Below, piece after piece: positions 1,226 through 54,760 of a DNA stretch of 57,625 nucleotides. The DNA is from Bacteroidota bacterium. GTDB lineage: Bacteria; Bacteroidota; Bacteroidia; Palsa-948. The first letter of the stretch is position 1. Each line of letters starts with the position of its first letter. Location: positions 1 through 57,625 of the forward strand of contig JACQAL010000048.1 of NCBI GenBank assembly GCA_016195025.1, read 5' to 3'. The translations under genes and the position numbers were made by a program. The notes under the pieces are model-generated. The model was not told where the DNA came from. It did no database searches and saw only the letters and a list, made by a program, of their open reading frames with translations.

Positions 1226-1849
1226 TTATTTATCGGTGATTATTAATTTACCTGTTGTAATGACCTCACTTGTCCCTTGTCCCTTGTCCTCTGTTACTTT
1301 ATAAAAATAAATTCCGCATGGTAAACCATCGCGGGTGATTGTGAGATTCCTCGCTCCGCTCGGAATGACACTTTGTGTCACCTCTTGCCCGTAGCAGTTG
1401 TAAACGGTGAGAGTTGCGTTGTGTAATGGAGTATTTGTTTGCAAAGTTGCCTGCGTAGAGAAGGGGTTTGGGGAAATTGAAAATTCTGTTTCCATATTTA
1501 TTTGTAATATCCCAGCGCAAGAGTTAACTGTAACTGTTACAGTTCCCGTAGTAGCTGATGCGCCATTCGACAGATAGCAGCTATAAATAATGGTGGTAGT
1601 GGGGCTTGCAACAGGATTTGATATGTTTGGATTGTTCAAACTTCCGGCAGGGGACCATACATAGGAAAAAGGTCCAGGGTCGTTAGTACAAATTGCAGTG
1701 ATAGTTGTTGACTGTCCGTTACAAATAGTAACATCTGGAGACATAGTAACAGCAAGAGACGGAGACATTATAGCTTGAGGTGACTTTGTTTGCCCCTGCA
1801 CAACTGTCAGCGCGAGAACTGCTGCCGAAACGAGTAAAACTTTTTTCAT
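1226..1849 (-). CDS. Small T9SS type A protein with a PKD/Ig-like domain
   Basis: 207 aa. Signal peptide 1-20 (MKKVLLVSAAVLALTVVQGQ), almost identical to that of the 4736-5413 gene. Residues about 34-108 form one PKD/Ig-like domain (VTICNGQSTT...YVWSPAGSLNNPNISNPVASP), of the type repeated in the large adhesin at 15384-18257. Residues about 120-207 are a type A sorting domain (SPNPFS...NATLTVYNCYGQEV...GIYFYKV). The loop after QEV holds a palindromic element translated as TQSVIPSGARNLTI, and a CTTGTCC heptamer triplet follows at 1269-1289. Probably exported to the cell surface by the T9SS; binding target unknown. Confidence 0.85.
   Translation of the reverse strand: MKKVLLVSAAVLALTVVQGQTKSPQAIMSPSLAVTMSPDVTICNGQSTTITAICTNDPGPFSYVWSPAGSLNNPNISNPVASPTTTIIYSCYLSNGASATTGTVTVTVNSCAGILQINMETEFSISPNPFSTQATLQTNTPLHNATLTVYNCYGQEVTQSVIPSGARNLTITRDGLPCGIYFYKVTEDKGQGTSEVITTGKLIITDK
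1341..1381. repeat. In-frame palindromic element in a T9SS sorting domain, copy 1
   Basis: Reading on the minus strand: a TGACAC-aaa-GTGTCA hairpin followed by ATTCC...GGAAT around a GAGCGGAGCGA core. It is translated as VTQSVIPSGARNLT. The same element lies at the same protein position in the genes at 1910, 3653, 5480, 13020 and 14052. Confidence 0.85.
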
Positions 1850-1871
1850 TGTCTTTGACTCACCCCTCTTT

Positions 1872-1895
1872 CCCCTCTCTACGCGTAGAGAGGGG
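1872..1895. repeat. Cassette-junction palindrome, copy 2
   Basis: Same perfect 24-bp palindrome as 1188-1211, between the stop of the Kelch gene and the start of the PKD gene. The flanking bases towards both genes are also conserved. Confidence 0.9.
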
Positions 1896-1909
1896 ATGAA
1901 AGGGGAGAG

Positions 1910-3592
1910 TTATTTATCAGTGATTATTAATTTGCCTGTTGCAATGGCCTCACTTGCCCCTTGCCCCTTGTCCTCTGTTACTTTATAAAAATAAATTCCG
2001 CTTGGTAAACCATCGCGGGTGATTGTGAGATTCCTCTGACCTACGGTCGCCCCGCTTTGCGGGGTGCTCGGAATGACACTTTGTGTCACCTCCTGCCCGT
2101 AGCAATTGTAAAGCGTGAGAGTTGCGTTGTGTAATGGATTTTCTGATTGCAAAACTGTCTGTGTGGAAAAAGGATTGGGAGAAATAGTAATCGCTCTTTG
2201 CTCGAATAATTGTGAAACATTATTAGGACAACTTACAAAAGCAGAATCAACATATATACATAGATTATTATCAGTTATTGTTAAAGTATACATACCTATT
2301 GCAAGACCAGTGGCAGTTTGAGTTATTTGCGCTGTTGGATTCCATGAATAAGCATAAGGAAATGTACCGCCTGAAATATTTGCTGTTACACTGCCATCGC
2401 TTGAAGTGCATAATGAAGCATTTGTAATTGTCATGCTTGTAGTTAGAGCAGTTGGCTGTACGATGGTTGCTGTTGTGATTGTTGCACAAGAGAGGGAATC
2501 AGTTACGGTTACAGTATAACTTCCTGCACTGAGTCCAGTAATTGATGAAGTCGTTTCTCCAGTACTCCATAAATAAGAATAAGGTGGAATTCCGTTTGAT
2601 GCATTTATAAGAGCACTTCCGTCATTTCCTCCGTTACAATTTATATTTGTTGTAGATAAACTTGCAGAAGAAGGACACCATTCCCAAAAATCCTGTTTGA
2701 AATTAAAACTAAGAGTACTGCCATCATTTCCTGTTCCTATGTATCCTTTGTTACCTATTGAAAAACCAACAGCATAGTGTCTTGCTGTTCCATCAAAGAT
2801 TGTTTTTTGCGTCCATGCATTTGTTACTTGATCCCATTCCCAAAAATCTTTTTTATTAGCTCCATCATATCCTGTTGCGATATATCCTTTTAGACCGATA
2901 GAAAATCCAATGGCTTGGTATCGTGCTGTTCCGGCAAACTGGGCTTTCTGAATCCATGTGTTGCTTGATGGGTCGTATTCCCAAAAATCATTTTTATATA
3001 TTGGAAATTGCTGTCCTGTACCAATGTATCCTTTTGTGCCAATGGAAAAGCCAACGGCATTCTGTCTTGCCGTTCCACTAAAGTTTGCTTTTTGTGTCCA
3101 TACATTCGTTGCCTGATTCCATTCCCAGAAATCTGAGCGCAACGAATCAACATCACGCCCTGTTCCAACATATCCCTTTGTGCCGATTGAAAAACCGATT
3201 GCACTGCCTCGTGCTGTTCCCCCAAAATTTGCTTTTTGTGTCCACACATTTGTTGCCTGATTCCATTCCCAGAAATCCTGCTTATAAGTACCATCTACTC
3301 CTGTTCCTATATATCCTTTAGTGCCTATGGAAAAAGCAACTGCGTATCTTCTTGCCGATACAAAGTTTGCCTTCTGTGTCCACGTATTGTTTGCCTGATC
3401 CCATTCCCAAAATGTCTGCGTGTCGGCATTGTTATTATCATTTCCTGTTCCTACGTACCCTTTTGTACCTATGGAAAATCCAGTAGCATATTGTCTTGCC
3501 GTTCCACCAAAGTTTGCTTTTTGTGTCCACGCACCTTGAACTTTTGCAATTCCACAAAGAGCAATTAATAAGATGAGTAAAACTTTTTTCAT
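1910..3592 (-). CDS. Kelch-type propeller protein with SprB-like repeats and T9SS type A domain
   Basis: 560 aa. Signal peptide 1-20 (MKKVLLILLIALCGIA). Residues about 21-300 hold six or seven Kelch/galactose-oxidase-like repeats with the pattern W(T/I)QKANF.GTAR..A.GFSIG.KGY.GTG...DFWEW. Residues about 310-455 hold two SprB/PKD-like repeats (NCNGGNDGSALI...PPYSYLWSTGETT; then SLCTSSDGSV). The type A sorting domain covers about 465-560. Its variable loop carries an expanded palindromic insert (2025-2089) translated as PSTPQSGATVGQRN. The propeller resembles that of 14052-15263. Likely a surface-displayed binding protein; no catalytic residues recognised. Confidence 0.9.
   Translation of the reverse strand: MKKVLLILLIALCGIAKVQGAWTQKANFGGTARQYATGFSIGTKGYVGTGNDNNNADTQTFWEWDQANNTWTQKANFVSARRYAVAFSIGTKGYIGTGVDGTYKQDFWEWNQATNVWTQKANFGGTARGSAIGFSIGTKGYVGTGRDVDSLRSDFWEWNQATNVWTQKANFSGTARQNAVGFSIGTKGYIGTGQQFPIYKNDFWEYDPSSNTWIQKAQFAGTARYQAIGFSIGLKGYIATGYDGANKKDFWEWDQVTNAWTQKTIFDGTARHYAVGFSIGNKGYIGTGNDGSTLSFNFKQDFWEWCPSSASLSTTNINCNGGNDGSALINASNGIPPYSYLWSTGETTSSITGLSAGSYTVTVTDSLSCATITTATIVQPTALTTSMTITNASLCTSSDGSVTANISGGTFPYAYSWNPTAQITQTATGLAIGMYTLTITDNNLCIYVDSAFVSCPNNVSQLFEQRAITISPNPFSTQTVLQSENPLHNATLTLYNCYGQEVTQSVIPSTPQSGATVGQRNLTITRDGLPSGIYFYKVTEDKGQGASEAIATGKLIITDK
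1953..1973. repeat. Heptanucleotide repeat CTTGCCC in a sorting-domain coding region
   Basis: Three heptamers (CTTGCCC, CTTGCCC, CTTGTCC), coding on the minus strand for the DKGQGA segment. The same triplet recurs in the sorting domains of the genes at 1226 (1269-1289), 3653, 4736 and 5480, and without a gene at 7574-7631. Confidence 0.75.
2025..2089. repeat. In-frame palindromic element, expanded copy
   Basis: The same outer element as 1341-1381, but its core is replaced by a longer insert containing the hairpin CCCCGC-aaa-GCGGGG. The reading frame is kept and eight codons are added. Confidence 0.85.
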
Positions 3593-3614
3593 TGTCTTTG
3601 ACTCACCCCTCTTT

Positions 3615-3638
3615 CCCCTCTCTACGCGTAGAGAGGGG
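3615..3638. repeat. Cassette-junction palindrome, copy 3
   Basis: Same perfect 24-bp palindrome as the other junctions, between the M43-like gene and the Kelch gene. Confidence 0.9.
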
Positions 3639-3652
3639 ATGAAAGGGGAGAG

Positions 3653-4729
3653 TTACTTATCAGTGATTACTAATTTGCCTGTTGCAATGGCCTCACTTGC
3701 CCCTTGCCCCTTGTCCTCTGTTACTTTATAAAAATAAATTCCGCTTGGTAAACCATCGCGGGTGATTGTAAGATTCCTCGCTCCGCTCGGAATGACACTT
3801 TGTGTCACCTCCTGCCCGTAGCAGTTGTAAACCGTGAGAGTTGCGTTGTGTAATGGAGTATTTGTTTGCAAAGTTGTTGAAGTGGAGAAGGGGTTGGGAG
3901 AAACAGAAAAACTTTTTTGACTACCGTAGTTGTTTACTCCGGCAGGAGGATTTCCTCCCTGAGAAGTTTTCAAAGACGCCCTGCAACTATTTATTGCATT
4001 CCACATGACTGCTTTTTGTCCGGCTGTAAAAAAGCATTTCAATGCATCGTCCGCGTAAGTCATGTAATTTGTGCAAAGCGCAACCTGTGTCAGCCCGCTG
4101 CATGTATCCATAGAAGAAGAACATGAACCATCTGATGTATATGTATCGGGTATTCCATCCACATCAATTGCACACGCATTTCCAACCGTATATACTAATC
4201 CGAACCAATGCCCCAATTCGGAACTTGCAGTTTTTCCTAAGTTATAAGGCGGACAAGTTCCGTTCACCGTGCAGTAATGAATAACCAAAGCATCGGTGCT
4301 TGCAGTTGCACAGGGAAACTGCGAATAACCAATCAGCCCGCCTGCAAGATTGCAAACATAAATATTCAAATAACTGTCTCTATCCCAAATATCATCGCCA
4401 CCTGTTGCGGAAGACATTACTTTATTATCGCTTGTAAAGGATACAGCGGTTGTTTGCTTATGAATAATTCCATTCGTAGGGTTTCCATTGGGGTCTTGCT
4501 GCGCAAGCATAAACTGAATATTTGTATTTGCGGCCGGGGTGTATGTATTTGCACAAGTTGTGTCGCTGTAATCATAATTAAGAGTTTGCAACTGCTGAAG
4601 AATTGTGGGGTCAGAAACATTTTGCCCAGCGCTATTGTAAATTACATGAAACACCGTTGGAACAACGAGCGTTTGAGAAAATGATTTGCAAAAAATTGCA
4701 ATCAGAGAGAGAGTAAATATTTTTTTCAT
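3653..4729 (-). CDS. M43 (pappalysin-like) metalloprotease homologue with degenerate zinc site, T9SS type A
   Basis: 358 aa. Signal peptide 1-19. Residues 20-255 follow the M43 family (start LVVPTVFHVIYN; later DVDGIPDT and NYMTYADDALKCFFTAGQ, matching the family Met-turn region). The family zinc motif is HExxHxxGxxH. Here positions 170-180 read SELGHWFGLVY, so the first histidine is Ser170 (codon 4220-4222) and the third is Tyr180 (codon 4190-4192); Glu171, His174 and Gly177 remain. Two of three zinc ligands are lost, so it is probably a pseudoenzyme or binding protein. The sorting domain covers about 275-358 with a palindromic element at 3768-3808. Six bases separate it from the upstream gene, the only array junction without the palindrome. 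Confidence 0.88.
   Translation of the reverse strand: MKKIFTLSLIAIFCKSFSQTLVVPTVFHVIYNSAGQNVSDPTILQQLQTLNYDYSDTTCANTYTPAANTNIQFMLAQQDPNGNPTNGIIHKQTTAVSFTSDNKVMSSATGGDDIWDRDSYLNIYVCNLAGGLIGYSQFPCATASTDALVIHYCTVNGTCPPYNLGKTASSELGHWFGLVYTVGNACAIDVDGIPDTYTSDGSCSSSMDTCSGLTQVALCTNYMTYADDALKCFFTAGQKAVMWNAINSCRASLKTSQGGNPPAGVNNYGSQKSFSVSPNPFSTSTTLQTNTPLHNATLTVYNCYGQEVTQSVIPSGARNLTITRDGLPSGIYFYKVTEDKGQGASEAIATGKLVITDK
3768..3808. repeat. In-frame palindromic element in a T9SS sorting domain, copy 3
   Basis: Same two-hairpin element and same protein position as 1341-1381, one base different in the left arm; translated as VTQSVIPSGARNLT. Confidence 0.85.
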
Positions 4730-4735
4730 TGTTGT

Positions 4736-5413
4736 TTATTTATCAGTGATTATTAATTTGCCTGTTGCAATGACCTCATTTGCCCCTTGCCCCTTGTCCT
4801 CTGTTACTTTATAAAAATAAATTCCGCTTGCAAGATTGCCGCGCTCAATGACGACTGATGACTGATGACTGATGACTACTGACTTTACCTCCTGCCCGTA
4901 GCAGTTGTAAACCGTGAGAGTTGCGTTGTGTAATGGAGTATTTGTTTGCAAAGTTGTTGAAGTGGAGAAGGGGTTGGGGAAAAGAGAAACTGTCTGCTGA
5001 TAATTATTTTCATTAACTCCAATAATAAACCCACAACCGCCATTGTCAATGCTGTCATTATAGGTGGATTCTATATGTGTTGTATCATAAACCGCAGTCA
5101 CATGAATGTAAAACATTCCCCAATTGTAATTCGTGAATCCTATGTATGTTGTGTCTGGATTTCCAATGCAAGGATCATAATAAAAACCTGTCTGCTTAGT
5201 AAAAATATAAAGATTGGTATCTCTGTACACTTTATACCCCACTAAAGTATCTGTTTTTATAGAATCGGGAGGAGACCAAGAAAGACCCCAACAATTCCAT
5301 CCTGGAGGATATTGATACTGACAACTGAATTGTAAATTTTTAATTGGATTAATCTGCCCATGCACAACTGTCAGCGCGAGAACTGCTGCCGAAACGAGTA
5401 AAACTTTTTTCAT
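4736..5413 (-). CDS. Fibronectin III-like T9SS type A protein
   Basis: 225 aa. Signal peptide 1-19, nearly the same DNA as in the 1226-1849 gene (MKKVLLVSAAVLALTVVHGQ). Residues about 21-130 look like one fibronectin type III fold (LSWSPPDSIKTDTLVGYKVYRD...YIHVTAVYDT). The type A sorting domain covers about 145-225. In contrast to its neighbours, the sorting-domain loop has no palindromic element. It is filled by an ACTGATG heptamer repeat (4854-4881), giving KSVVISHQSSVVIERG. The same loop is thus occupied by two unrelated repeat types in adjacent genes. Confidence 0.85.
   Translation of the reverse strand: MKKVLLVSAAVLALTVVHGQINPIKNLQFSCQYQYPPGWNCWGLSWSPPDSIKTDTLVGYKVYRDTNLYIFTKQTGFYYDPCIGNPDTTYIGFTNYNWGMFYIHVTAVYDTTHIESTYNDSIDNGGCGFIIGVNENNYQQTVSLFPNPFSTSTTLQTNTPLHNATLTVYNCYGQEVKSVVISHQSSVVIERGNLASGIYFYKVTEDKGQGANEVIATGKLIITDK
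4854..4881. repeat. Heptanucleotide repeat ACTGATG inside a sorting-domain loop
   Basis: Three exact ACTGATG units and one variant (ACTACTG), translated on the minus strand as part of SVVISHQSSVV. Loss of one unit would shift the frame before the conserved GIYFYKV strand. Confidence 0.85.
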
Positions 5414-5441
5414 TGTGTGTTTTTATGACTCACCCCTCTTT

Positions 5442-5465
5442 CCCCTCTCTACGCGTAGAGAGGGG
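5442..5465. repeat. Cassette-junction palindrome, copy 4
   Basis: Same perfect 24-bp palindrome, between the RCC1 gene and the fibronectin-like gene; the flank towards the downstream start has a few extra bases. Confidence 0.9.
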
Positions 5466-5479
5466 ATGAAAGGGGAGAG

Positions 5480-6868
5480 TTATTTATCAGTGATTATTAA
5501 TTTACCTGTTGCAATGACCTCACTTGCCCCTTGCCCCTTGTCCTCTGTTACTTTATAAAAATAAATTCCGCTTGGTAAACCATCGCGGGTGATTGTCAGA
5601 TTCCTCGCTCCGCTCGGAATGACACTTTGTGTCACCTCCTGCCCGAAAGAATTGTAAATGGTGAGAGTTGCGTTGTGTAAAGGAATATCTGTTTGCAAAG
5701 TTGCCTGTGTGGAAAAGGGATTTGGGTAAATAGAAATACTATTTTCTCCTAAATATTCTTGTGTGGATGAAACGGAGCATGGAATTGTTACCTGCGTTGG
5801 TGAAGGATGAGGGGAATTATTTTGTATGCCGATACCCAATTGTCCATTGTCTGCAAGACCGCAGGCCCAAACTGTTCCATTATTTTTCACAAAAAAAGAT
5901 TGATAGGAAGAACCCCCAGCTGCTATAGAGAGGATATTTGAAAGAGAATTTATTTGTACAGGAATAGATTTATTGACGGTAGTACCATCACCCAATTCTC
6001 CATCTAAATTGTATCCGCAAGCCCAAACTGTTCCATTATTTTTTAGAAAAAGAGAATGTTCGCCCCCTGCTGCTATTGAAATAATGCCTAAGAGAGAAGA
6101 TATTTGAACAGGAGTCAATTTACTTATTGTAGTGCCATCGCCTAATTGTCCGGAACTATTCAGGCCACAAGCCCAAACCGTTCCGTTACTTTTGAGAAAA
6201 AGAGAATGCTCGCCCCCTGCTGCTATTGCAATAATGCCTGAGAGAGAAGGTATCTGTACAGGAGTACTTTTAAAAATTGTTGTTCCATCGCCCAATTGTC
6301 CATAACTATTCAAACCAAATGACCAAACTGTTCCATTGCTTTCAAGAAAAAGAGAGAAGTCATCTCCTGCTGATACAGCTACTATTTTGGGAAGCCCATT
6401 AACTTGAATAGGAATAGTATCGAAAATGGGTCCGCAAGCCCACACCGTACTGTCATTCTTCAAAAAAACAGATTCATTAGCACATATAGATATAGCGGAA
6501 ATTGCTGTAATGTTTACCTGCACGAGTAAACAAGTGGTATCAGTGTTTCCATCGCCTAATTGTCCATTTTGATTTTGCCCGCAAGCCCAGGCAGTTCCAT
6601 CGCTCTTTAAGAAAACAGAATGGTCGTCTCCCGCCCCAACAGAAATAATTCCTGTAAGAGAATTAATAATCAGAGGGCTTGATGTGTTTCCACTACTGCA
6701 CCCGTTGCCTAAATCTCCAGAGAAATTTCCTCCGCACGACCATGCGGTGGAATCTTTACAGACAAAAAGAGAATGATTATGTCCGCCAGCAATGAATTGT
6801 GCATTTGTCTGCCCGTGCGCAACCATCACCGTGAAAACAATTATCAGAGCGAGTAAAACTTTTTTCAT
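5480..6868 (-). CDS. RCC1-repeat propeller protein with T9SS type A sorting domain
   Basis: 462 aa. Signal peptide 1-19 (MKKVLLALIIVFTVMVAHGQ). Residues about 20-350 hold RCC1-like repeats of about 50 aa (HSLFLKS.GTVWACG.N..GQLGDGTT...PVQI.SL.GIISIAAGG). The type A sorting domain covers about 375-462 with a palindromic element at 5595-5635. It is the first gene of the array and sits behind the only good promoter of the region, so the six genes may be one transcript. It is the full-length relative of the truncated 107-1165 gene. RCC1 propellers usually bind proteins; the partner is unknown. Confidence 0.92.
   Translation of the reverse strand: MKKVLLALIIVFTVMVAHGQTNAQFIAGGHNHSLFVCKDSTAWSCGGNFSGDLGNGCSSGNTSSPLIINSLTGIISVGAGDDHSVFLKSDGTAWACGQNQNGQLGDGNTDTTCLLVQVNITAISAISICANESVFLKNDSTVWACGPIFDTIPIQVNGLPKIVAVSAGDDFSLFLESNGTVWSFGLNSYGQLGDGTTIFKSTPVQIPSLSGIIAIAAGGEHSLFLKSNGTVWACGLNSSGQLGDGTTISKLTPVQISSLLGIISIAAGGEHSLFLKNNGTVWACGYNLDGELGDGTTVNKSIPVQINSLSNILSIAAGGSSYQSFFVKNNGTVWACGLADNGQLGIGIQNNSPHPSPTQVTIPCSVSSTQEYLGENSISIYPNPFSTQATLQTDIPLHNATLTIYNSFGQEVTQSVIPSGARNLTITRDGLPSGIYFYKVTEDKGQGASEVIATGKLIITDK
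5595..5635. repeat. In-frame palindromic element in a T9SS sorting domain, copy 4
   Basis: Same two-hairpin element and position as 1341-1381; encodes VTQSVIPSGARNLT. Confidence 0.85.
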
Positions 6869-6915
6869 TTCCTAAAAATCAGTTTTTCAATTATGTGTAA
6901 AATAAATCTGAACAA

Positions 6916-6945: not shown

Positions 6946-7014
6946 ATGAAGGAGCGGAAGTTTTCAACTCTATGTAAGGATTTGCGCTCCTTGCCGTGAG
7001 AAGGAAGAAAAACC

Positions 7015-7468: not shown

Positions 7469-7573
7469 AACAAAAATAATCAGCATGCCCATGAGAGTTG
7501 CCACCGGAGAGATGATTGCCGCCTCAATCAATAGTATACCGAAACAACTCGGCTTTGCGAACGGAGGGATAAG

Positions 7574-7631
7574 GGACAGGGGACAGGGGACGGGTGAATT
7601 TCCCTTGCCGCTTGCCCCATGTCCCTTGTCC
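7574..7631. repeat. Inverted pair of heptanucleotide arrays
   Basis: Three GGACAGG-type heptamers at 7574-7594 face four CTTGCCC/CTTGTCC-type heptamers at 7604-7631, so the two arrays can pair as a long hairpin. The right-hand units are the same family as the heptamers inside the sorting domains at 1269-1289 and 1953-1973. Confidence 0.8.
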
Positions 7632-7685
7632 CATTTTCGGATTCCCGACTACCGATGGTATAAAGACACATTGGTTAAGATTGCG

Positions 7686-7958
7686 GTTGCTTCCATCCTG
7701 ACTAAAGTAACTTCAATTATAATTATGGTTGCTTCAATTAAGACCAAAGTCACTTCCATTGATATTGCGGTTGCTTCCATCTTGACTAAAGTAACTTCAA
7801 TTAAGAGTATGGTTGCTTCAATTAAGACCAAAGTCACTTCCATTGAGATTATGGTTGCTTCCATCTTAACCAAAGTCACTTCAATTAAAATTGCGGTTGC
7901 TTCCGTCAAGAGTATAATTGCTTCTATCTTGACTAATGTTACTTTAATTAAGATTGAA
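7686..7958. repeat. 21-bp tandem array, 13 units
   Basis: Units start at 7686, 7707, 7728 and every 21 bp to 7938, with no insertion or deletion. The core is GT(T/A/C)(G/A)CTTC(C/A)AT, and alternate units are more alike, giving a 42-bp higher-order period. Both strands are open: plus reads as VASI..KVTSI.I. heptads inside 7446-8066, minus as MEATIISMEVTLV heptads inside 7649-7984. I do not call either a gene with confidence: no signal peptide, no conserved domain, and the plus frame runs through the heptamer hairpin at 7574-7631. The rest of 7469-8093 shows no gene. Confidence 0.9.
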
Positions 7959-8057: not shown

Positions 8058-8060
8058 ATT

Positions 8061-8088
8061 CCTTAATCCTTAATCCTTAATCCTTCAT
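8061..8088. repeat. Heptanucleotide repeat CCTTAAT
   Basis: Three exact CCTTAAT units and a CCTTCAT variant immediately upstream of the 8094 start codon, occupying the ribosome-binding region. Copy-number change would alter leader length or sequence for the 229-aa protein. Confidence 0.85.
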
Positions 8089-8945: not shown

Positions 8946-9449
8946 ATGAAAAATTCTTCTTGCATAGTAAGTAGTATTTTTTTCTCTTTTCTTTTTTCTC
9001 TTTTCTCTCTTCTTGCCGCAGCGCAGTCATTAACTCCCAATGTGGTTGCTTCACAGGGCGATTATGTTACTTCCGCAGGCGGCTCTCTGTCATGGACATT
9101 GGGAGAAATATCAGGCGAAACTTATTCTTCCGCAACTAATTTTCTAACGCAGGGATTTCAGCAGCCCGACACTGTATATGTGACGGCTGTTTCAAATCCT
9201 GTAGAACAAACTATTTCTGTTTATCCGAATCCGGTTATTGATAACCTGATGATTAATTTTTCAGTTTCGGGAGAAAATTATTTTGCCGAAGTGTTTGACA
9301 TGACCGGGCGAATGCTCACGCGAAAATATATTTCATCGGCTCAAACAAAAATTTCATTCAGTCCGTTTTCAGAAGGAATTTACCTGCTCACTATCAGCAA
9401 TGCAGAAACTCATATTACATACTCTTTCAAAATACATAAGTTAAAATAA
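8946..9449 (+). CDS. Small T9SS type A surface protein
   Basis: 167 aa. Signal peptide about 1-27 (hydrophobic FFSFLFSLFSLLAAAQS). Residues about 28-80 form a short beta module (VVASQGDYVTSAGGSLSWTLGEISGETY...LTQGFQQPD), common at the N side of Bacteroidota sorting-domain proteins. The type A sorting domain covers about 90-167 (VYPNPVIDNLMINF...AEVFDMTGRML...GIYLLTISN). It lies six bases upstream of the collagen-like gene, so the two are probably co-transcribed. This sorting domain lacks the palindromic and heptamer inserts of the 107-6868 array. Confidence 0.85.
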   Translation: MKNSSCIVSSIFFSFLFSLFSLLAAAQSLTPNVVASQGDYVTSAGGSLSWTLGEISGETYSSATNFLTQGFQQPDTVYVTAVSNPVEQTISVYPNPVIDNLMINFSVSGENYFAEVFDMTGRMLTRKYISSAQTKISFSPFSEGIYLLTISNAETHITYSFKIHKLK

Positions 9450-33876: not shown

Positions 33877-33951
33877 AATCTACGAATTACGAATTAATCG
33901 AATTACTAATGACAGGAAATCAATGTAATTAGGATTTTTCATTAAGGGCTG

Positions 33952-45042: not shown

Positions 45043-45361
45043 CCTGCAGGTATCGCGCCAGGTCCTGCAGGGAAAATCATTTTCCCTGCAGGAATGTTCA
45101 TTTCCTCTGCAAGTCCGTTCATCATTCCTGCATGGATGGCGTTTTCCCTGCAAGTCCGTTCATCATTCCTGCATGGAATGGCGTTTTCCCTGCAAGTCCG
45201 TTCATCATTCCTGCATGGAATGGCGTTTTCCCTGCAAGTCCGTTCATCATTCCTGCAGGGAACATCATCTTCCCTGCAAGGAACATCATTTTCCCTACAG
45301 GGATGGCGTTTTCCCTGCAAGTCCGTTCATCATTCCTGCATGTCCGTTCATCATTCCTTGC
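45043..45361. repeat. 21-bp tandem array, 16 units with CCTGCA core
   Basis: CCTGCA-type cores begin at 45043, 45064, 45085, 45106, 45127, 45147, 45168 and so on to 45356. Spacing is 21 bp except twice 20 bp (units beginning 45127 and 45294). Alternate units are more alike, giving a 42-bp higher order. All three plus frames and the lptE frame stay open through much of it. The two 20-bp units break the frame, so the array is not maintained as protein code. It separates lptE from the TonB receptor gene. Confidence 0.92.
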
Positions 45362-45522
45362 AAAAACGTTGTTTTTTCATCAAATTCCATGTCTTCCCCT
45401 ATATTTCTGCACCTTATTGCTGCCTTACATGACTCCTCAGCGCGTAAACGACTTTTAAAAAATTCTTCATCAGCCGTATCAATGTATCGGTGCAGCAATT
45501 TTTTTATTTCGGAAGCGCTCAT
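45295..45522 (-). CDS. Antitoxin-like small ORF overrun by the 21-bp array
   Basis: 75 aa from ATG 45522. The first half reads MSASEIKKLLHRYIDTADEE, then FFKSRLRAEESCKAAI. It resembles the start of small Bacteroidota proteins often encoded before RelE-type toxins. The last 25 residues (GMMNGHAGMMNGLAG) are translated 21-bp repeat. No toxin gene is present, so it is probably a remnant interrupted by the array. Resemblance to antitoxins is from memory of sequence style, not a search. Confidence 0.45.
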   Translation of the reverse strand: MSASEIKKLLHRYIDTADEEFFKSRLRAEESCKAAIRCRNIGEDMEFDEKTTFLQGMMNGHAGMMNGLAGKTPSL

Positions 45523-45568: not shown

Positions 45569-47998
45569 TCAGAAATCAAGTTTATAATAGAACAAAGGTA
45601 AAAAACCTAACTGGTAATCTTCGCGTATGGGATTTTTAGTTGGGTTCTTCGGGTCGGGGTCATAAGTGAGTTGCAAAATATTTTGCGTGTTCAGTATGTT
45701 GATTAAATCCAACCCGAGTTCGTGCGTAACTTTTTTGCGGTTGGCTTTCAAACCGATGTTTATATCCCACCTGAAATAATTATGAAAGCGCTGCGCATTG
45801 CGCATGGAATCGAGTTCAATGAATTCTCCCTGCTGGTTTGATTTGATGATGTCGGCAGGAGAATATCTTCCACCGCCCGCCCAGGTAATTTTTGTTCCAG
45901 TGGTGAGCGTGGAGTTTTTCTTCTTGCCCACTTTAAATTCTTTCGCGAACAAAAAATTAGTGGCGAACTTTTCGTCAAAGTCAGTGCTGCGCAAAATTCC
46001 ATCGCTGCCTTTGTATTTTGTGTCAAACACCGAAGCGGTGAGCATGTAGAAAAAACTTTTGCTGAAGAATTTTTCCACCGTTAATTCAAATCCATAATTT
46101 CTCCCCGTGCCTTTGTTCGCCAGCGTATGCGGGAAAAATCTTCCGTAGCCCGTTCCCTGATTCAGCAGCGAAAAAGAAGAACGGGAAGTGTCAATCGGCA
46201 CTTCGTATAAATACTGATAGTACGTTTCCATTTTCACGCGCATATTATCGGAAGCGAAAATGTCATAGGCGAGAACATAATGAATGCTTCGCGTGAAACC
46301 GATGTTGCGGTTCGGGAAAAAATAATTTCCCGAAGAATCCTTCATGCGGTTGAAATAAATATACGTTGGCTGCATCTGGCTATGCATTCCGAACCCGATG
46401 CTGAGCGTTTGCTTCTCTTTCATCCTCCAACTGGCGCCTGCGCGCGGCTCGATAGATGAACTTCCGTTCAGCACGAAATACTGCGCATGCAGCCCGGTGG
46501 TGAAAGAAAATTTATTTGTCGGCTTGAATTTGAACTGAACATAGGGCTGAAGCAATGCAGTGCTGCCGATGAAATCATTCCGTCTTTCAAATTTCCAGGT
46601 GAGCGCGTTGCGGTTGCTGTCGAGCAAATCGAAATCATATTTTTCAATGTATGCGCCTGCCTTCATGCTCACGCGGCTGCTGAATTTATGGCTGGCAAAA
46701 AAAACGAAGGAGGTTTTCTGCTGAATGTATTCGTATCCCATTTTCTCTATGAGCGAATCCACTTTGTAACCGGTATCGCGGTACACCAGCAAATGATGCG
46801 CCCATGATTCATCGGTGGAATGTGCGAGAGTGAACTTGAGAAAAGTTTTTTCGTTCAGCGTTTTTGTGTACGAAGCGCCAATCACTCCCATGGAAGAACC
46901 GAAATACTGGTCTTTGTTTTTTTCTCCATAAATATCTTCCTGCGGTGTGCTGTCTTTGCTCACCACAATATTGATGGAACTTTTTCCTCCCACACCGAAG
47001 ACAGAAAAATTATCTCCGTGCTTGCCGGGAAAATTAAATTTGAAAGCCGCATCCTGGTATTTCGGAATTGCCGAAGTGCCAATGCGTATGTGCAGCGCCT
47101 GAAATAATTGCAGAGAAGAATAACGATACGTGAGCAGATAAGACGAGCCGCTTTGTTTTGAAATCGGTCCTTCAGCCGCGAGTTCTGTTCCGAGAAAACC
47201 AAACTGCCCGGTGAATTCGTGCTTCTCGTTGTTTCCGTTTCGCATCCGCAAATCAAAAACTCCGGCAACGGCATTTCCGTATTCCGCAGGAAATGCTCCG
47301 GTGTAAAAATCAGAGTTGTCGAGCGTTTTGCTGTTGATGATGTTCACCGCACCGCTGGTGGTTCCCGCCACGGCAAAATGATTCGGGTTGGGAATGTTCA
47401 CGCCTTCGAGCCGCCACAACAATCCGAGTGAAGAATTTCCGCGCACCACAATTTCATTATCGGAATCATCGGTTCCCTGAACGCCCGCGAAGTTCGAAGC
47501 CATGCGCGCTGGGTCAGTGCGGCTTCCCGCATAGCGGTTGGTTTCATCCACCGAAAAAGTCCGCGCGCTCACGGTTGCCATTTCATTCCGCGCCTCGCCT
47601 TTTTTTGTTGCAGTGATAACTACTTCCTGAACTTTCACCGCGCTTTCTTCCATTTCAAAATTCAGAATCACTTCTTTTGCGGAAGTTACAATCACATCGG
47701 GAATGGTGTAAGGCTGGTAGCCGAGAAAACCTGCGCGCAAAGAATATCTTCCCACCGGAACATTCTGCATTCTGAAATTTCCATTCACATCGGTTACTGC
47801 CCCGGAAACTTTTGCCGAGTCCTTCAGCAGAAAAATATTCACTCCGGGAAGTTCCGACTTCGCATCTTTATCAAGAATTCTTCCGCGGATGGTTTGGGTG
47901 AGTTCCTGCGAAAAACATGCTTCGACTCCGCTCAGCATGACAAGCAGCCAAATGGAAAACCGTAAACTGTAAACTGTAAACCGGAAACTGATTTTCAT
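45569..47998 (-). CDS. TonB-dependent receptor with N-terminal carboxypeptidase-like domain
   Basis: 809 aa. Signal peptide about 1-31. CarboxypepD_reg-like domain about 35-115 (IRGRILDKDAKSELPGVNIFLLKDSAKVSGAVTDVNGNF). Plug domain about 120-225 (EVVITATKKGEARNEMATVSARTFSVDE; DSDNEIVVRGNSSLGLLWRLEGVNIPNP). The barrel runs to the end, with terminal aromatic FYKLDF. Takes up a nutrient across the outer membrane with TonB energy; substrate not readable. No SusD partner is present. The signal peptide is made of TGTAAAC heptamers (47961-47988). The 48008 gene lies nine bases upstream on the same strand, so they are probably co-transcribed. Confidence 0.95.
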   Translation of the reverse strand: MKISFRFTVYSLRFSIWLLVMLSGVEACFSQELTQTIRGRILDKDAKSELPGVNIFLLKDSAKVSGAVTDVNGNFRMQNVPVGRYSLRAGFLGYQPYTIPDVIVTSAKEVILNFEMEESAVKVQEVVITATKKGEARNEMATVSARTFSVDETNRYAGSRTDPARMASNFAGVQGTDDSDNEIVVRGNSSLGLLWRLEGVNIPNPNHFAVAGTTSGAVNIINSKTLDNSDFYTGAFPAEYGNAVAGVFDLRMRNGNNEKHEFTGQFGFLGTELAAEGPISKQSGSSYLLTYRYSSLQLFQALHIRIGTSAIPKYQDAAFKFNFPGKHGDNFSVFGVGGKSSINIVVSKDSTPQEDIYGEKNKDQYFGSSMGVIGASYTKTLNEKTFLKFTLAHSTDESWAHHLLVYRDTGYKVDSLIEKMGYEYIQQKTSFVFFASHKFSSRVSMKAGAYIEKYDFDLLDSNRNALTWKFERRNDFIGSTALLQPYVQFKFKPTNKFSFTTGLHAQYFVLNGSSSIEPRAGASWRMKEKQTLSIGFGMHSQMQPTYIYFNRMKDSSGNYFFPNRNIGFTRSIHYVLAYDIFASDNMRVKMETYYQYLYEVPIDTSRSSFSLLNQGTGYGRFFPHTLANKGTGRNYGFELTVEKFFSKSFFYMLTASVFDTKYKGSDGILRSTDFDEKFATNFLFAKEFKVGKKKNSTLTTGTKITWAGGGRYSPADIIKSNQQGEFIELDSMRNAQRFHNYFRWDINIGLKANRKKVTHELGLDLINILNTQNILQLTYDPDPKNPTKNPIREDYQLGFLPLFYYKLDF
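47961..47988. repeat. Heptanucleotide repeat TGTAAAC in the TonB-receptor signal peptide
   Basis: Four heptamers (CGTAAAC, TGTAAAC x2, CGGAAAC), read on the minus strand as SFRFTVYSLRF right after the start codon. Confidence 0.85.
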
Positions 47999-48007
47999 GC
48001 TGCAATG

Positions 48008-49099: not shown

Positions 49100-49114
49100 A
49101 TTTACGAGGAAAAT

Positions 49115-50479: not shown

Positions 50480-50497
50480 TGAATTGGCTTTAAACCA

Positions 50498-50505
50498 CAA
50501 AGATA
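50498..50505 (-). promoter_or_regulatory. -7 box TATCTTTG of the 50479-45569 operon
   Basis: Perfect TAnnTTTG on the minus strand about 20 bp before ATG 50479 and just past the amidase stop at 50510. A -33 box would have to lie inside the amidase gene and is not clear. Confidence 0.45.
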
Positions 50506-50509
50506 ATTT

Positions 50510-52894
50510 TTATTCAATGATTAACTTTCGGAAAACAGTTTCACTTCCGCTGGTAAATTTCAGCAAGTAAATTCCGCTGTGCGCTTCGCCTAAGTTCAAT
50601 ATTCCATGTTCAAGGTTTGAAGTTTGAATTAACCGCCCTGTTACATCAAACACTTCTGCTTTTTCAACTTTAAACTTCAAACCTGAAACCTGAAACCTGC
50701 CGTCAGGCGATGGATTCGGATAAATTTCAATTGCACCGGAATTATTCTGTTCATTCACTCCCGTAGTAGAAACACAATTCCATGTTGCTTGCCATCCTGC
50801 ATTGTTTACAAACGGGTCTGATTTAAAATGAACGGACATCACCCCGCTGTTTGCCGTTACAGTTCCTGGCGAAACCGTTCCCGTATAAATTCCAATCAGC
50901 GCGGGCGATTGCGTGATTTGACCGTCATAAATCCATAGCGAATCAAAATTTGTTTCCAAATCAAAACTTGTGAACGACATAGTAACCGATGAAGCGTTTG
51001 CCGGCTGAATGATATCCGTCCAATCTTCGTTTCCGCCATAAGGATTGGAAGGCCCGCCCGTATCATCAAAAGTTCCCGAACAATTTATCTCCATGTAATT
51101 GCAGGTGGGAGTAGTGAAAGGACCTCCCTGCGTGTGAGAAGTTCCATCCCAGATTCTCCAGTAGTATGTTGTGTTCGGCATGAAGGCAAGATAATCGCTG
51201 GGGTTCGTGTTCAGCGCAAAACCTCCGGGGCATCCGATGGAAGTTAAATTCGGAATTGCTTTGTTCCAGTAATAAGAAAAGTTCGGGTCGTCTGAAACAT
51301 CCACAAACCATCCGCTTCCGGAATTTTGCCAGGTAAGATTCACGCCTAAGGTCGGGCAGCCCAGCGCGTTCACAGCAAGATTGGTTGGAGTAACAGTGGA
51401 AGCATTGCTCGTCCATGATGCATTCCATCCGCTTGCGTTTGTGGCGCAATCGGAACGAAACTCAATGCACATTTTCCCGCTGCTGGCAACGAGCGTTCCG
51501 GGATTTGTTGTGCCCGTGAATTTTCCAATCAGCGGAGCCCACACATCGGTTCCGTCATACACATATAAATAATCCCACGTGTTCTCTGTATCAAAACTGC
51601 TGAAGGTGAGCGTTACGGAAGTTGCGCTTGACGGAGCAATCACCCAAACCAAGCGTTCATCATCCGAATAATTTCCGCCTGCTCCGCCCGAATCATAAAA
51701 AGTTCCTGATGCCGCAGTGAGATTTGTGGGCGCGGGCATCGGGTTAATGAGTTTGAAATAATAATCCCAGTCCCAGTTGGGTCCCGGGTCGGTATGCGTT
51801 TGGTTGGGATAATGCTGATGCCCTTTTATTTTTGTGCACGAGCCGGGAATTCCCGATTGATTATAATACGTAGTGGAAAGCCAGGGCCAGAAACCTGTGC
51901 GGATGTTCGGAATTCCATAGCCGCTGCCGCAAATATCTTTTACAAGATTGGCAGAAGAAGTATACATAGCCGTAGTGTACCAACCGGTTTGCGAGGCGTA
52001 GCCCTCGTGCTCAATGCCGATGGTGTATGGGTTTTCACTTCCCACATGCCATGCTTTGTTCGCTTCCAGAACCATTTGCGTGCACTGCCCGTCAGAACTT
52101 CGCATCACATAATGCGCAGAGACCTGCGAAGAAGAATTCTGAAACCAGGAAATGGCGCCCGCGTAACTTCCTTCGGTATCGTGAATGGTAACTGCGCTGA
52201 TTTGCGTTCCGCTGCGCGAACTATAATTGGGAGAACTCACCCACAATGCAGGAGGATAATCGGCAGATTGCACTACGGGAAGAAAACTTCCTTTGAAAGT
52301 ATTCCCGTTCTTGTCATAAATTTTACCGGCAGAAGCAATAACAAAGGAAGAACTCAGCACGTTGAAATTTTCTTCTCCGAAAATTTTCACCCTATCAATA
52401 GCGTAAGTCGGAAAATTATATTTCGCAGCGCAGTCCGCATTATTCAGGAAAGAAAAAACCGAATAGAGATGCGTGCACAAGGCATAATTGCTTAAAAGAT
52501 TTCCGTTATCGGGAAGTTCGCTCAGGAAAACAAGAACGGGAACTTGATTTTCAATTTTAGAATCAGCCAGAAGATTTTTTTGCGCCTGCTCGTAGGCATC
52601 GGCATACGCGATAATATTTTTTTCAGGAGAAGAGATTAGTTCGGCTGCGCTGAAATGCGAAAGGTTGGAAACCACCGTTAAGTTATTCTGGAAATAATTT
52701 TTTCCATCCTGCACCAAGCCCATCACGCCATAATACTCCGGCAAACCCATGCAACTCTCCGGAGAACCTGCATTATGCGTGATGTGATGAAAGCGCGAAT
52801 TGGTAAACGCCACCGCTTCTAAAATTCCTTTGGGAATGGACGGATGCAGTTGATATGCTTTGTCAAAAAAGTTTTTGTAATTGTTTTCCGGCAA
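50510..52894 (-). CDS. Secreted N-acetylmuramoyl-L-alanine amidase with two CUB domains and T9SS type A domain
   Basis: 794 aa from a TTG at 52894; the frame is open further up to 53002. Residues 1-215 resemble a degenerate transglycosylase-like domain (IPKGILEAVAFTNSRF...GVMGLVQDG). Residues about 230-380 are an Amidase_2 (AmpD/PGRP) fold with likely zinc ligands His238 (TIHDTEG), His359 (KGHQHYP) and Asp369 (THTDPGPNW). Two CUB-like domains follow (about 395-500, TWDYLYVYDG; about 620-730, NFDSLWIYDG), then a sorting domain. It probably cleaves peptidoglycan stem peptides outside the cell. The upstream codons (QKIIFTLLSAAKAGQ) look like a signal peptide without a start codon. Confidence 0.9.
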   Translation of the reverse strand: MPENNYKNFFDKAYQLHPSIPKGILEAVAFTNSRFHHITHNAGSPESCMGLPEYYGVMGLVQDGKNYFQNNLTVVSNLSHFSAAELISSPEKNIIAYADAYEQAQKNLLADSKIENQVPVLVFLSELPDNGNLLSNYALCTHLYSVFSFLNNADCAAKYNFPTYAIDRVKIFGEENFNVLSSSFVIASAGKIYDKNGNTFKGSFLPVVQSADYPPALWVSSPNYSSRSGTQISAVTIHDTEGSYAGAISWFQNSSSQVSAHYVMRSSDGQCTQMVLEANKAWHVGSENPYTIGIEHEGYASQTGWYTTAMYTSSANLVKDICGSGYGIPNIRTGFWPWLSTTYYNQSGIPGSCTKIKGHQHYPNQTHTDPGPNWDWDYYFKLINPMPAPTNLTAASGTFYDSGGAGGNYSDDERLVWVIAPSSATSVTLTFSSFDTENTWDYLYVYDGTDVWAPLIGKFTGTTNPGTLVASSGKMCIEFRSDCATNASGWNASWTSNASTVTPTNLAVNALGCPTLGVNLTWQNSGSGWFVDVSDDPNFSYYWNKAIPNLTSIGCPGGFALNTNPSDYLAFMPNTTYYWRIWDGTSHTQGGPFTTPTCNYMEINCSGTFDDTGGPSNPYGGNEDWTDIIQPANASSVTMSFTSFDLETNFDSLWIYDGQITQSPALIGIYTGTVSPGTVTANSGVMSVHFKSDPFVNNAGWQATWNCVSTTGVNEQNNSGAIEIYPNPSPDGRFQVSGLKFKVEKAEVFDVTGRLIQTSNLEHGILNLGEAHSGIYLLKFTSGSETVFRKLIIE
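50668..50695. repeat. Heptanucleotide repeat CCTGAAA in the amidase sorting domain
   Basis: Four heptamers (CTTTAAA, CTTCAAA, CCTGAAA x2), coding RFQVSGLKFKVE between the conserved NPSPDG and EVFDVTGR strands. Confidence 0.85.
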
Positions 52895-53005
52895 TGCATC
52901 TTTGAGTGGAGAGGTTTGCCCGGCTTTTGCTGCGCTCAGGAGGGTAAAAATTATTTTTTGAGTGCTTGTTGGAAATCCGGTAAGAGGAAGATAAGAAGGC
53001 AGTTA

Positions 53006-54760
53006 TTACTGTATTACCACCTTCTCCGTATAAACCTTACTCTCGCTCTGCACTCTCATAAAATATATTCCTTTGGGCTGATTTGAAATATCAATTGCTG
53101 ATTGTGGATTGGAAATTGCCGATTTGTATATCTCCTGCCCCAGGTCATTGTAAATGGTAACGCCTGTGGTGAGCAAAGCCGAACCATCTTTTGCGCCTTG
53201 CGTCTGCGCTGCATCTTGCGGCAGTTGCAATGTGAATAATCCGGTTGACGGATTTGGTGTAATAGTAATAGTAATTGCAGATTGCAAACTTGTAATTTTG
53301 GTTTTAGAATTCTGAACCATTGAAGAAGAAACAAGAGGATGATGAAAATATTTTCCTTCATCTGCATAATAAATATAAGAGGTTGGATGATTAAATGGTT
53401 TCGGTTGTTTTGTTGTGTCAGTTATAATACGTGAATAATCTGAAGATGTTGTTGCACAATTAAAAGGTTTAACGTATGCTCCAAATTCTGCTCCTTCACT
53501 CACACTAAAACCATCTTTAAGTTCTATTTCTTTTCCTGCACGGTAGGTAATATCAGCGGAGAATGAAGTAGAAACTAACCTGTTATTTGCTATGATATTT
53601 TCAAAAGCATCTATTTCAATAGGATTAAAATTCTTAATCCCTACAAATCCATAAGGAAAATCAACACTTATATTTCTGTCCATTTGATTGTAATATTCAA
53701 GAGGTACAGAAGATGAAGGATAATTAGAAGGAAAAAAATCGGGATAAGTACTAAAAGGATATAAATAATTTTGATTATAGAGTGAATATAGATTAAAAAG
53801 AAACATATAGTCCAATCCCGGATATTCACCTGTGTTTCCGCCTATACCATTTCCACCTACCGATGGGTCTGCATCAAGTGGATTTCTTAATTCATTTGTA
53901 GATGACCAATACACATTTCCGAAGTTTCCATTTCCATAATTGTACGGACCTGTACATGGCGCTGCATTCAACATACACTCATATCTCTGATTAGAAACTG
54001 CATTTCCCTCACTCTTTAAAAGACTTAATATAATAGCAGTATGCTGATAAAAAAAAGGTAAACCAGGCAGGGAAGAGGAAGAGCACGGCACGTCACACCG
54101 AGGTTCTGTCATATTAAACATAGCATCAGATGTATTAATCCATGAATCTCCAATGGCTGCAATCTGTAAACTTTTATATGTTGGGTCATCTGCAACACCT
54201 ATGTCAAGGATCTCAAGTGCTCCAGGTATTAAGAGCCACACAATAGAATTACCTGAAGCAGGGATATATGTTGTTTTTCCAGTTATAGCATTTGCTGCTA
54301 CAGCAACTCCAGTAGATAAATGACTAAAATTACCACTACCTGTATTAGGGCTACAATCCGGAGCTTGACTACCATTGTTTCGCATACAATTACCATTAAC
54401 AGGATTTATTATTATCCAATCACAAAGACCACTCCTCCAGCAATCATTCGCCCAGCTAACCATTCTATCTGTAATATTAATTGCTTCCTTTTGAATATCG
54501 GTATTTTTGTCACCAATATTATTTAACGGCAAATTATTGTATTTAACTCCAGGAGGAATATACTTAGCAACCAATGCACAGCCCATCAATATTTCTATCG
54601 CCTCATCTATGCTTTCGTCATCTGCAGGATCTGGGGCATTGCCTATAAAAGAAGAACCGACCAACAGAAGCAATCGAAGAAGATGTGATGCCTTGGTTGA
54701 AATGCACGTAATTGTTAGAGAGAAAATCAGAGGCAACATCCTCCCGAAGAAAAAAACCAT
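53006..54760 (-). CDS. Frameshifted T9SS type A protein, C-terminal part
   Basis: The family-like sequence in this frame begins at about 54658 (GSSFIGNAPDPADDES). The residues from the ATG at 54760 to there are read out of frame, so that start is probably not genuine. Residues describe a large extracellular region (GDSWINTSDAMFNM; GGNGIGGNTGEYPGLDYMFLFNLYSLYNQN) and the pattern ITYRAGKEIELKDGFSVSEGAEFGAYV, which fits the 3-coathanger stack domain of Bacteroidota surface proteins. A type A sorting domain ends it (TLQLPQDA...IYNDLGQEIY...GIYFMRVQSE). Heptamers at 53094-53121 lie in its loop. Restoring one base at 54659 joins it to the N-terminal part. Confidence 0.82.
   Translation of the reverse strand: MVFFFGRMLPLIFSLTITCISTKASHLLRLLLLVGSSFIGNAPDPADDESIDEAIEILMGCALVAKYIPPGVKYNNLPLNNIGDKNTDIQKEAINITDRMVSWANDCWRSGLCDWIIINPVNGNCMRNNGSQAPDCSPNTGSGNFSHLSTGVAVAANAITGKTTYIPASGNSIVWLLIPGALEILDIGVADDPTYKSLQIAAIGDSWINTSDAMFNMTEPRCDVPCSSSSLPGLPFFYQHTAIILSLLKSEGNAVSNQRYECMLNAAPCTGPYNYGNGNFGNVYWSSTNELRNPLDADPSVGGNGIGGNTGEYPGLDYMFLFNLYSLYNQNYLYPFSTYPDFFPSNYPSSSVPLEYYNQMDRNISVDFPYGFVGIKNFNPIEIDAFENIIANNRLVSTSFSADITYRAGKEIELKDGFSVSEGAEFGAYVKPFNCATTSSDYSRIITDTTKQPKPFNHPTSYIYYADEGKYFHHPLVSSSMVQNSKTKITSLQSAITITITPNPSTGLFTLQLPQDAAQTQGAKDGSALLTTGVTIYNDLGQEIYKSAISNPQSAIDISNQPKGIYFMRVQSESKVYTEKVVIQ
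53094..53121. repeat. Heptanucleotide repeat ATTGCTG/ATTGGAA in a sorting-domain loop
   Basis: Four diverged heptamers (ATTGCTG, ATTGTGG, ATTGGAA, ATTGCCG), giving AISNPQSAIDIS on the minus strand at the same sorting-domain loop as in other genes. Confidence 0.7.

Follow-up and report, generated by a model that had tools for sequence, protein, structure and literature searches.

Tandem repeats of seven nucleotides recur throughout the window analysed here, a stretch of 57,625 nucleotides that forms contig 48 (JACQAL010000048.1) of the draft genome of a Bacteroidota bacterium of the GTDB lineage Palsa-948 (GCA_016195025.1; 3.5 Mb in 79 contigs; G000 below). A first-pass annotation, made from the letters alone, had listed 15 such stretches, many of them inside signal peptides and sorting-domain loops, and had proposed that they could be phase-variable switches of envelope genes. 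Our results showed that the seven-base repeats are real and confirmed their excess. The tracts are probably the products of a slippage bias with a 7-nt step, tolerated at permissive places.

In the window, where a perfect tract was defined by at least nine successive lag-7 matches, we counted 18 perfect period-7 tracts, compared to 0.30 ± 0.50 expected from 100 third-order Markov simulations. The other periods between 4 and 12 yielded 0 to 4 perfect tracts each. Outside the window, tracts were counted at a run of at least 10. Our own-genome sample comprised the starts of 20 other contigs (338.5 kb) and contig interiors (280 kb), which amounts to about a fifth of the genome and, pooled with the window, to 676 kb. 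The first part contained 30 period-7 tracts, against 3 in a single simulation, and the second another 28. The genome-wide excess anticipated by the annotation is present in this sampled fifth.

Among runs of at least 13 in the pooled 676 kb, period 7 dominates (34), followed by period 14 (17) and period 8 (8); period 6 gave 2, period 9 gave 1, periods 10 and 11 none, and 0 to 0.4 were expected. Nearly all period-14 tracts with a run of at least 11 (36/37) are 7-based. Period 21 contributed 31 runs of at least 13, and a strong 7-nt sub-period was found in 19 of the 52 period-21 rows with a run of at least 11. Tract density at a run of at least 10 reached 27.8 per 100 kb in the window, 8.9 in the own sample and 2.4 to 15.5 in six genus mates (G001 to G006, one genome per species), compared to 2.9 in 20 stretches from other families of the class and 1.9 in 80 named Bacteroidota loci. 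The 7-nt process proposed below would be stronger in this species and in most of its genus than in most of the sampled Bacteroidota.

We then located the tracts relative to genes, which were called by a simple longest open reading frame (ORF) rule. Of the 71 tracts of the own sample outside the window, 25 are intergenic (44 per 100 kb) and 46 lie in coding sequence, distributed over codons 1-30 (13 tracts, 28 per 100 kb), codons 31-60 (6), gene middles (15, or 4.5 per 100 kb) and the last 100 codons (12). The share of codons 1-30 among coding tracts (13/46) exceeds the expected 8.2% (P = 5.7e-5). Arbitrary stretches of the genus mates gave 7/16 (P = 1.3e-4), a count from which loci fetched for gldD were excluded; the same loci are included in the placement and period-spectrum counts. 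Period 6 showed no codon 1-30 bias in either set (3/30 in the own genome, 0/11 in the genus mates). Convergent regions, which account for 8% of the intergenic length, hold seven of 28 intergenic tracts, and six of these seven share two regions. A promoter or start-site role of the intergenic tracts was considered and rejected, as the 28 tracts read are not concentrated in promoter-holding regions; their distances to the start codon were listed without a formal test. When MutY and a TPR gene were considered as further array sites, we found a single tract only, in MutY of G001.

To account for this distribution, we propose a mutation process that would duplicate and homogenise DNA in 7-nt steps, mostly regardless of sequence, and that would most likely be replication slippage. 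New arrays would persist where they are least harmful, that is in intergenic space, in signal peptides and in the sorting-domain loops of the type IX secretion system (T9SS). In signal peptides and in these loops, nearly any peptide of the right character would suffice. A stop-free heptamer array encodes the identical seven-residue cycle in all frames, as found for the ten heptamers that we translated, because 7 and 3 share no factor. It follows that, whatever the frame, arrays with a T-rich sense strand encode hydrophobic runs and those with an A-rich sense strand encode basic runs. The gene itself would be intact only after three-unit or compensated changes, and selection would retain the in-frame versions.

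Thirteen of the 15 stretches listed earlier show period 7 both by lag-7 identity and by a Tandem Repeats Finder row. The weakest of these are 13839-13866 (16/21 lag-7 matches) and 7574-7631, which scores 34/51 when taken as a single stretch because it consists of two arrays. The stretch at 44822-44842 is weak (11/14 matches, Tandem Repeats Finder 82%), and the one at 53094-53121 is unconvincing (13/21 matches and no Tandem Repeats Finder row). Several of the listed coordinates overrun by a few bases, and the tracts that the list lacked include those at 3696-3713, 4780-4796, 5523-5540, 8980-9013 and 33881-33896. The gene labels PorP/SprF, Omp28, GldD, LptE and T9SS type A sorting domain stand above curated Pfam/NCBIfam cut-offs. 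For the gene labelled a TonB receptor, carboxypeptidase-regulatory domains lie above their cut-off and the Plug match lies below.

The described placement in signal peptides and sorting-domain loops was borne out. On the minus strand, the PorP/SprF signal peptide (gene 18317-19363) contains 4.57 units of GGCAGAT (19309-19340), and on the plus strand that of Omp28 (gene 29759-30727) contains 6.3 units of TTCTTAC (29769-29812; 89%). The lipoprotein signal peptide of GldD (minus strand, gene 33982-34647) carries two arrays, GAAGTAA x5.0 in its hydrophobic part (34553-34587) and ACTTTTG x4.1 in its basic N-terminal part (34607-34635; 90%). Two further minus-strand tracts are a weak AATAAAT x3.4 at the start of LptE (44817-44840; 82%) and AAACTGT x4.9 in the signal peptide of the TonB-receptor-like protein (47957-47990; 85%; gene 45569-47998).

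In sorting domains, five minus-strand CTTGYCC tracts occupy loop 2 of paralogous domains: CTTGTCC x3.0 at 1269-1289 (gene 1226-1849), CTTGCCC x2.57 at 1953-1970 (gene 1910-3592), and the newly added CTTGCCC x2.57 at 3696-3713 (gene 3653-4729), TTGCCCC x2.43 at 4780-4796 (gene 4736-5413) and CTTGCCC x2.57 at 5523-5540 (gene 5480-6868). Since they share one homologous position in five paralogues, they are not independent and count as one family. Loop 1 of gene 4736-5413 holds GACTGAT x3.57 (4853-4877, minus strand), read as the peptide VVISHQSSVV. The plus-strand array GGCAATT x2.9 (13846-13865; 92%) covers about residues 275-282 of gene 13020-14039, whose sorting domain spans residues 260-337, and AAACCTG x3.0 (50679-50699, minus strand) lies in the sorting domain of gene 50510-52894.

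Comparison of orthologous sites showed different arrays at the same place. In the basic part of the GldD signal peptide, G000 has the unit AAAAGTC, G005 and G004 have CACAAGT (in two rotations), and G002 has AGTTCAA. A single base distinguishes the units CAAAAGT and CACAAGT, and this base falls on different codon positions because successive units are read in different frames, so that codon-level selection does not explain the difference. Judging from the sequences, the units were copied along the array, or else the site acquired a new array, and both would amount to turnover. The Omp28 units are TCTTACT in G000, TTACTTT in G001 and TATACCT in G003, and Omp28 of G004 has a two-unit TATTCTT adjoining a hairpin insertion; the Omp28 search gave no match in G006 and no match to the N-terminus in G005. 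In both GldD and Omp28, the heptamers of the genus mates differ from those of G000 at the same site and are partly related to them, which points to turnover of the units. The receptor array was absent from the five other receptor starts read, two of which have a T/C-rich tract of 2.0-2.14 units. In G006, a frame change near residue 75 breaks the receptor orthologue (L206); a heptamer frameshift was rejected as its cause, as the broken copy has no period-7 tract. The split secDF of G004 was also set aside, since its break is a run of N.

The first-pass reading, in which gain or loss of one unit toggles envelope genes as in the neuO gene of E. coli K1, was then weighed. As claimed, a one-unit change shifts the frame and removes the protein: in our simulations of the window tracts, GldD, Omp28, PorP and the receptor all go out of frame. 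A three-unit change leaves Omp28 and PorP in frame, and in GldD some combined changes in both arrays restore the frame. Envelope genes are indeed prominent in the window, and neuO is a proven heptanucleotide switch at the 5' end of a coding sequence, reported out of frame in 42/64 genomes (PMC13001214). We analysed 63 tract rows near gene starts from the own genome, the window and the genus, under a rule that requires a 110-codon open frame after the tract. In-frame rows number 35, and another 26 rows have the tract upstream or elsewhere; the remaining two are possibly out of frame, neither with a signal peptide: L177:463, where no gene is called, and L141:991, which by its sequence lies upstream of what we take to be guaA.

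From 30 of the 35 in-frame rows we counted by eye 26 genes of seven species with the tract in an N-terminal export or membrane signal, and none of the 26 is out of frame. This count includes gldD five times, once per species, four of these loci having been fetched because gldD was found there, and it includes L178, a membrane-protein N-terminus rather than a clear signal peptide. The omitted in-frame rows are the one at 7573 of the window (a doubtful ORF), two at L184 (inside a long gene), L186, and L144, which has no export signal. LptE is essential in many bacteria, and LptE of two species in another family, G011 and G093, carries TTACTTC in 4 and 3 perfect units. The arrays are also short, mostly 2.3 to 5 units compared to 3 to 53 in neuO, and many are intergenic without concentration at promoters. 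Moreover, tracts are not confined to envelope genes (25/71 intergenic, 15/71 in gene middles). Set against the 42/64 out-of-frame genomes of neuO, the 0/26 result makes phase-variable envelope switches an unlikely explanation. Frequent switching is unlikely, unless the majority of each population retains the in-frame state alone.

Another explanation is that particular heptamers, like the short tandemly repeated heptamers (STRR) of cyanobacteria or TAACTGA, are copied from place to place as dispersed elements. In G000, TTACTTC forms arrays at five places, in G005 at three, and in the other five genus mates at none. Of the nine TTACTTC places read (in G000, G005, G011, G093 and G069), seven encode N-terminal signals and the other two lack a suitable reading frame. 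AATCCGC and AAGAAGT each occur three times among the 46 tracts of the window and 20 own-genome stretches. These 46 tracts nevertheless comprise 38 different canonical heptamers, TAACTGA not among them, and the units of GldD and Omp28 vary between species at one site. We searched 198 genomes of the class, G000 and its genus mates included, for three tandem units of TTACTTC, GACTGAT and TCCTTAA and found them in 5, 2 and 5 genomes; their backward controls were about as widespread (3, 4 and 5). There is no privileged heptamer sequence at class level, and our prior expectation that certain heptamers would be widespread in Bacteroidota was not borne out by these searches. Copying of dispersed heptamers is accordingly an improbable source of the tracts.

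A second kind of repeat shares the signal peptides with the heptamer arrays. The hairpin element TGAGYGNAGTCGAAG is present in 35 copies in G000 and in 1 to 12 copies per genus mate (41 in all), and its backward control had no match in the seven genus genomes. Across the class, it was found in 78/198 genomes, compared to one match of the backward control in each of three. A script that tests one strand and frame for signal peptides placed 22 of the 35 G000 copies in signal peptides, 8 elsewhere inside ORFs and 5 in intergenic sequence or short frames. One of the 8 (L338:2618) is a signal peptide by eye, which gives 23 in all. These 22-23 copies lie on a single strand and in a single frame, reading LSxVE. 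When the other frames were checked, 22 of 24 N-terminal copies were in the LSxVE frame, and the remaining two (L333, L334) are not signal peptides. In the window, the element TGAGCGGAGTCGAAG (47920-47934, minus strand) ends the signal peptide of the TonB-receptor-like protein (LSGVEACFSQ). Other sites of the element are L013:8422 and 14062, L018:9477 and 11194, L177:9112, L182:3563 and 12079, and L185:10602, together with L302, L319, L324-L326, L330-L332, L336, L338, L340 and L341.

The placement of this element differs between genomes. Among the genus mates, 24 copies were read; 3 of these belong to signal peptides and 14 lie in intergenic sequence or short frames. Of 34 copies on 30 loci of other families, none is in a signal peptide and 24 are intergenic or short. 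The difference between G000 and the others is significant (Fisher P 1.6e-9), as is the departure of the signal-peptide copies from a rough expectation of 1.6% (binomial P 3.7e-31). The flanks pair to give a stem, with Watson-Crick pairing at pair 1 in 32/35 copies (four pair types), at pair 2 in 29/35 (two types), at pair 3 in 26/35 (always A-T) and at pair 4 in 2/35. In shifted registers, used as a control, no position exceeded 21/35, and in the genus mates pairs 1 to 3 are formed in 22, 22 and 16 of 24 copies. Pairs 1 and 2 covary; pair 3, although paired, is nearly always A-T. By BLASTP at E 1e-3, the proteins that carry the 23 signal peptides form 19 groups that show no similarity to one another; six of these proteins were read only up to the locus end. 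Gene duplication therefore fails to account for most of the spread. Mere tolerance fails as well, because intergenic space should tolerate the element at least equally. The spread may instead reflect a preference at insertion, selection on the peptide that the element encodes, or copying from one signal peptide to another. Y1_Tnp transposase genes are present in 6/7 genus genomes, three of them in G000. A search of the open-licence literature with letter strings of the hairpin elements matched no paper.

A sister hairpin was found in sorting domains. The sorting domain of gene 1226-1849 has at least 117 matches in the genome (150 of 205 candidates scored), and we aligned the best 30 of these, counting loop types by eye. 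Two loops vary among them. Loop 1 is VAQIKNISGQTVTF-like in most; it derives from the sister hairpin in six (VIPSGARNL in five, VIPSAARNL in one) and from an AGTCATC array in two (VISHQSSVV), so that heptamer arrays and hairpins can occupy the same loop. At loop 2, many domains are EENK-like, six carry a GGGACAA/CAAGGGG array and others have glycine/proline-rich inserts. In the window, the sister hairpin with core ATTCCGAGCGGAGCGAGGAAT lies in a sorting-domain loop 1 (1346-1366, minus strand; peptide VIPSGARNL). The sites of the element GTCATTCCGAGCGNNGCGAGGAATCT are 1346, 3773 and 5600 of the window with a variant at 43836, and L003:402, L178:2865, L185:15509, L187:3335 and L189:1239 outside it. 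The 21-nt palindrome CCTGCCTGCCGGACAGGCAGG is nested in a variant sister hairpin copy within a sorting domain (15140-15160, plus strand), and identical palindromes occur in L024 (gldD of G002, between array units) and at L178:4870.

Taken together, these elements raise a possibility that we hold tentatively, and as somewhat less probable than its negation: the signal peptides of this species may be partly built from repeat DNA. Heptamer arrays would supply the basic and hydrophobic parts in any frame, and the hairpin with its covarying stem would supply the hydrophobic end (LSxVE, followed by the cleavage region). This hairpin would have spread to 23 genes in 19 groups here, its copies in other genomes lying mostly outside genes, and the sister hairpin would have entered T9SS sorting-domain loops likewise. 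If true, repeats would be a source of portable export signals, beyond tolerated noise.

A further rival explanation is selection on the nucleic acid itself: within export genes, the arrays might for instance act as modules of translation start or mRNA structure and so determine how much of an exported protein is made. It would fit the codon 1-30 bias of this genus and the covarying-stem hairpin in the signal peptides of 22-23 genes, two of which (the window receptor and the gene at L185:10545) also have a heptamer array. However, the heptamer sequences are diverse and differ between species, and intergenic density in the own genome is higher still than that of codons 1-30 (44 vs 28 per 100 kb), which leaves this explanation with little probability. 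Chance, base composition or an assembly artefact has next to no likelihood as the main cause, even in a draft genome of 79 contigs, given 18 tracts against 0.3 expected, the density across seven genomes of the genus and the arrays within conserved open genes such as gldD.

Several findings weigh against slippage with tolerance at permissive places. The case for slippage is indirect, and the comparison covers a single genome of each species. Tracts were selected as perfect repeats, which partly accounts for their uniformity. Density is not uniformly high in the genus (2.4 per 100 kb in G006), single loci of other families (L151, L079) equal this genus, and 33 of the 52 period-21 rows are true 21-nt arrays without a strong 7-nt sub-period, coming from few arrays. 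The codon 1-30 bias was absent in the 20 class stretches (0/5 coding period-7 tracts). In the 80 named loci, where period 7 has 2/15 coding tracts in codons 1-30, the bias appears for period 14 (6/16, P = 0.0013) and slightly for period 9 (6/30, P = 0.036), and in the genus mates for period 8 (2/4, P = 0.035). Although strongest here, the bias extends beyond the genus and, in part, beyond period 7. At orthologous sites, the GldD array of G006 mixes AGTTTAA and AGTTCAA, GldD of G001 has only arrays of 2.0-2.14 units in its hydrophobic part, and arrays are lacking in GldD of G003 and Omp28 of G002; the two nearest PorP orthologues have no perfect array. TTACTTC recurs in G000 with at least 3 units at each of five places; every one of the three that were read is a signal peptide, which could reflect selection for the peptide or copying between sites. 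Finally, TGAGYGNAGTCGAAG favours signal peptides beyond tolerance, so that near-neutrality may be too simple.

At 7573-7632 of the window, GGGACAG x2.7 faces a degenerate TCCCTTG array (76%), a strandless feature with a predicted strong hairpin; the facing arrays are predicted to fold from 7566 to 7640 into a single long hairpin of -44.9 kcal/mol. TCCTTAA x3.7 (8060-8085, plus strand) lies directly upstream of the gene at 8094. ACTTCTC x4.6 (43932-43963, minus strand; 92%) covers about residues 80-90 of 297 in gene 43310-44203, which has no Pfam family. Rfam matched no family in the window. Arrays of 21-nt (or 42-nt) units without a strong 7-nt sub-period occur at 7685-7953 and 45077-45370 and are frequent in the genus, further examples being L002:4396-4657, L186:17330-17532, L146:13438-13677 and L173:18799-19041. 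As a separate observation, the motif TTCGT on the gene strand occurs 3.42 times per kb in the 60 nt upstream of called genes of the own sample, compared to 1.25 per kb for its complement ACGAA.

This genus offers a natural system for measuring why long-unit repeats of bacteria favour 7 nt, a preference, known since 2007, for which PMC4679880 gives a proposed cause. It also shows how frame-breaking repeats can live inside genes, as the same peptide is encoded in all frames and the sites accept any hydrophobic or basic run. Our results further suggest that repeats can serve as building material for signal peptides and sorting-domain loops; proteins would thereby have a direct route to export signals.

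Heptamer STRR are known from heterocystous cyanobacteria, and small dispersed repeats and repeat peptides from other Bacteroidota. PMC4679880 relates that Mrazek et al. (2007) found heptanucleotides to be the most frequent class of long simple sequence repeats (SSR) in most of the genomes surveyed, and that polymerase slippage with a 7-nt contact length was proposed as the cause. As in those repeats, period 7 dominates here with an arbitrary unit; unlike them, the arrays of this genome enter coding sequence and concentrate in codons 1-30. A survey of SSR rated repeats of 4-11 nt as normally or weakly over-represented (PMC4060949). MacGregor (2015; PMC4679880) described TAACTGA direct repeats in Beggiatoaceae, Cyanobacteria and five Bacteroidetes; the main genome has arrays of two to six units, whereas some Bacteroidetes and Cyanobacteria reach up to 43. 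TAACTGA is a fixed heptamer, mostly intergenic, and in the main genome it stands directly upstream of start codons. The TAACTGA/STRR family shares with our tracts the excess of tandem heptamers over the genome, whereas here the heptamers are mostly different (38 in 46 tracts) and 46/71 tracts lie in coding sequence. The first-pass statement that heptamers have no described role in Bacteroidota is right as to the role, but TAACTGA repeats had already been reported in five Bacteroidetes (PMC4679880).

The GGGNATC-type heptamers of Xanthomonas and Nostoc are likewise genome-wide with variable unit number (Rehm, 2015; PMC4692102). They follow one G-rich, quadruplex-forming consensus and are under-represented in coding regions, unlike the tracts described here. 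The neuO array of E. coli K1 resembles ours in being a heptamer array at the 5' coding end, with the frame set by unit number (PMC13001214). There, one gene is involved, its array has 3-53 units and it is often out of frame, whereas we found short arrays in many genes and no signal gene of 26 out of frame. A heptanucleotide repeat of Haemophilus HMW1A is the subject of another paper (PMC8262952). Repetitive extragenic palindromic (REP) elements are short dispersed palindromes, some of them translated inside ORFs (PMC3733652). REP elements and TGAGYGNAGTCGAAG are both dispersed short palindromes with a conserved stem (35 copies here), the former mostly intergenic (PMC3733652) and the latter, in this genome, mostly inside signal peptides. 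We found no report of heptamer arrays in Bacteroidota signal peptides in the open-licence literature, as judged by titles and the starts of abstracts. Heptamer excess and heptamer phase variation are known from elsewhere, and the invasion of signal peptides and sorting-domain loops by heptamer arrays looks like a new form of such repeats.

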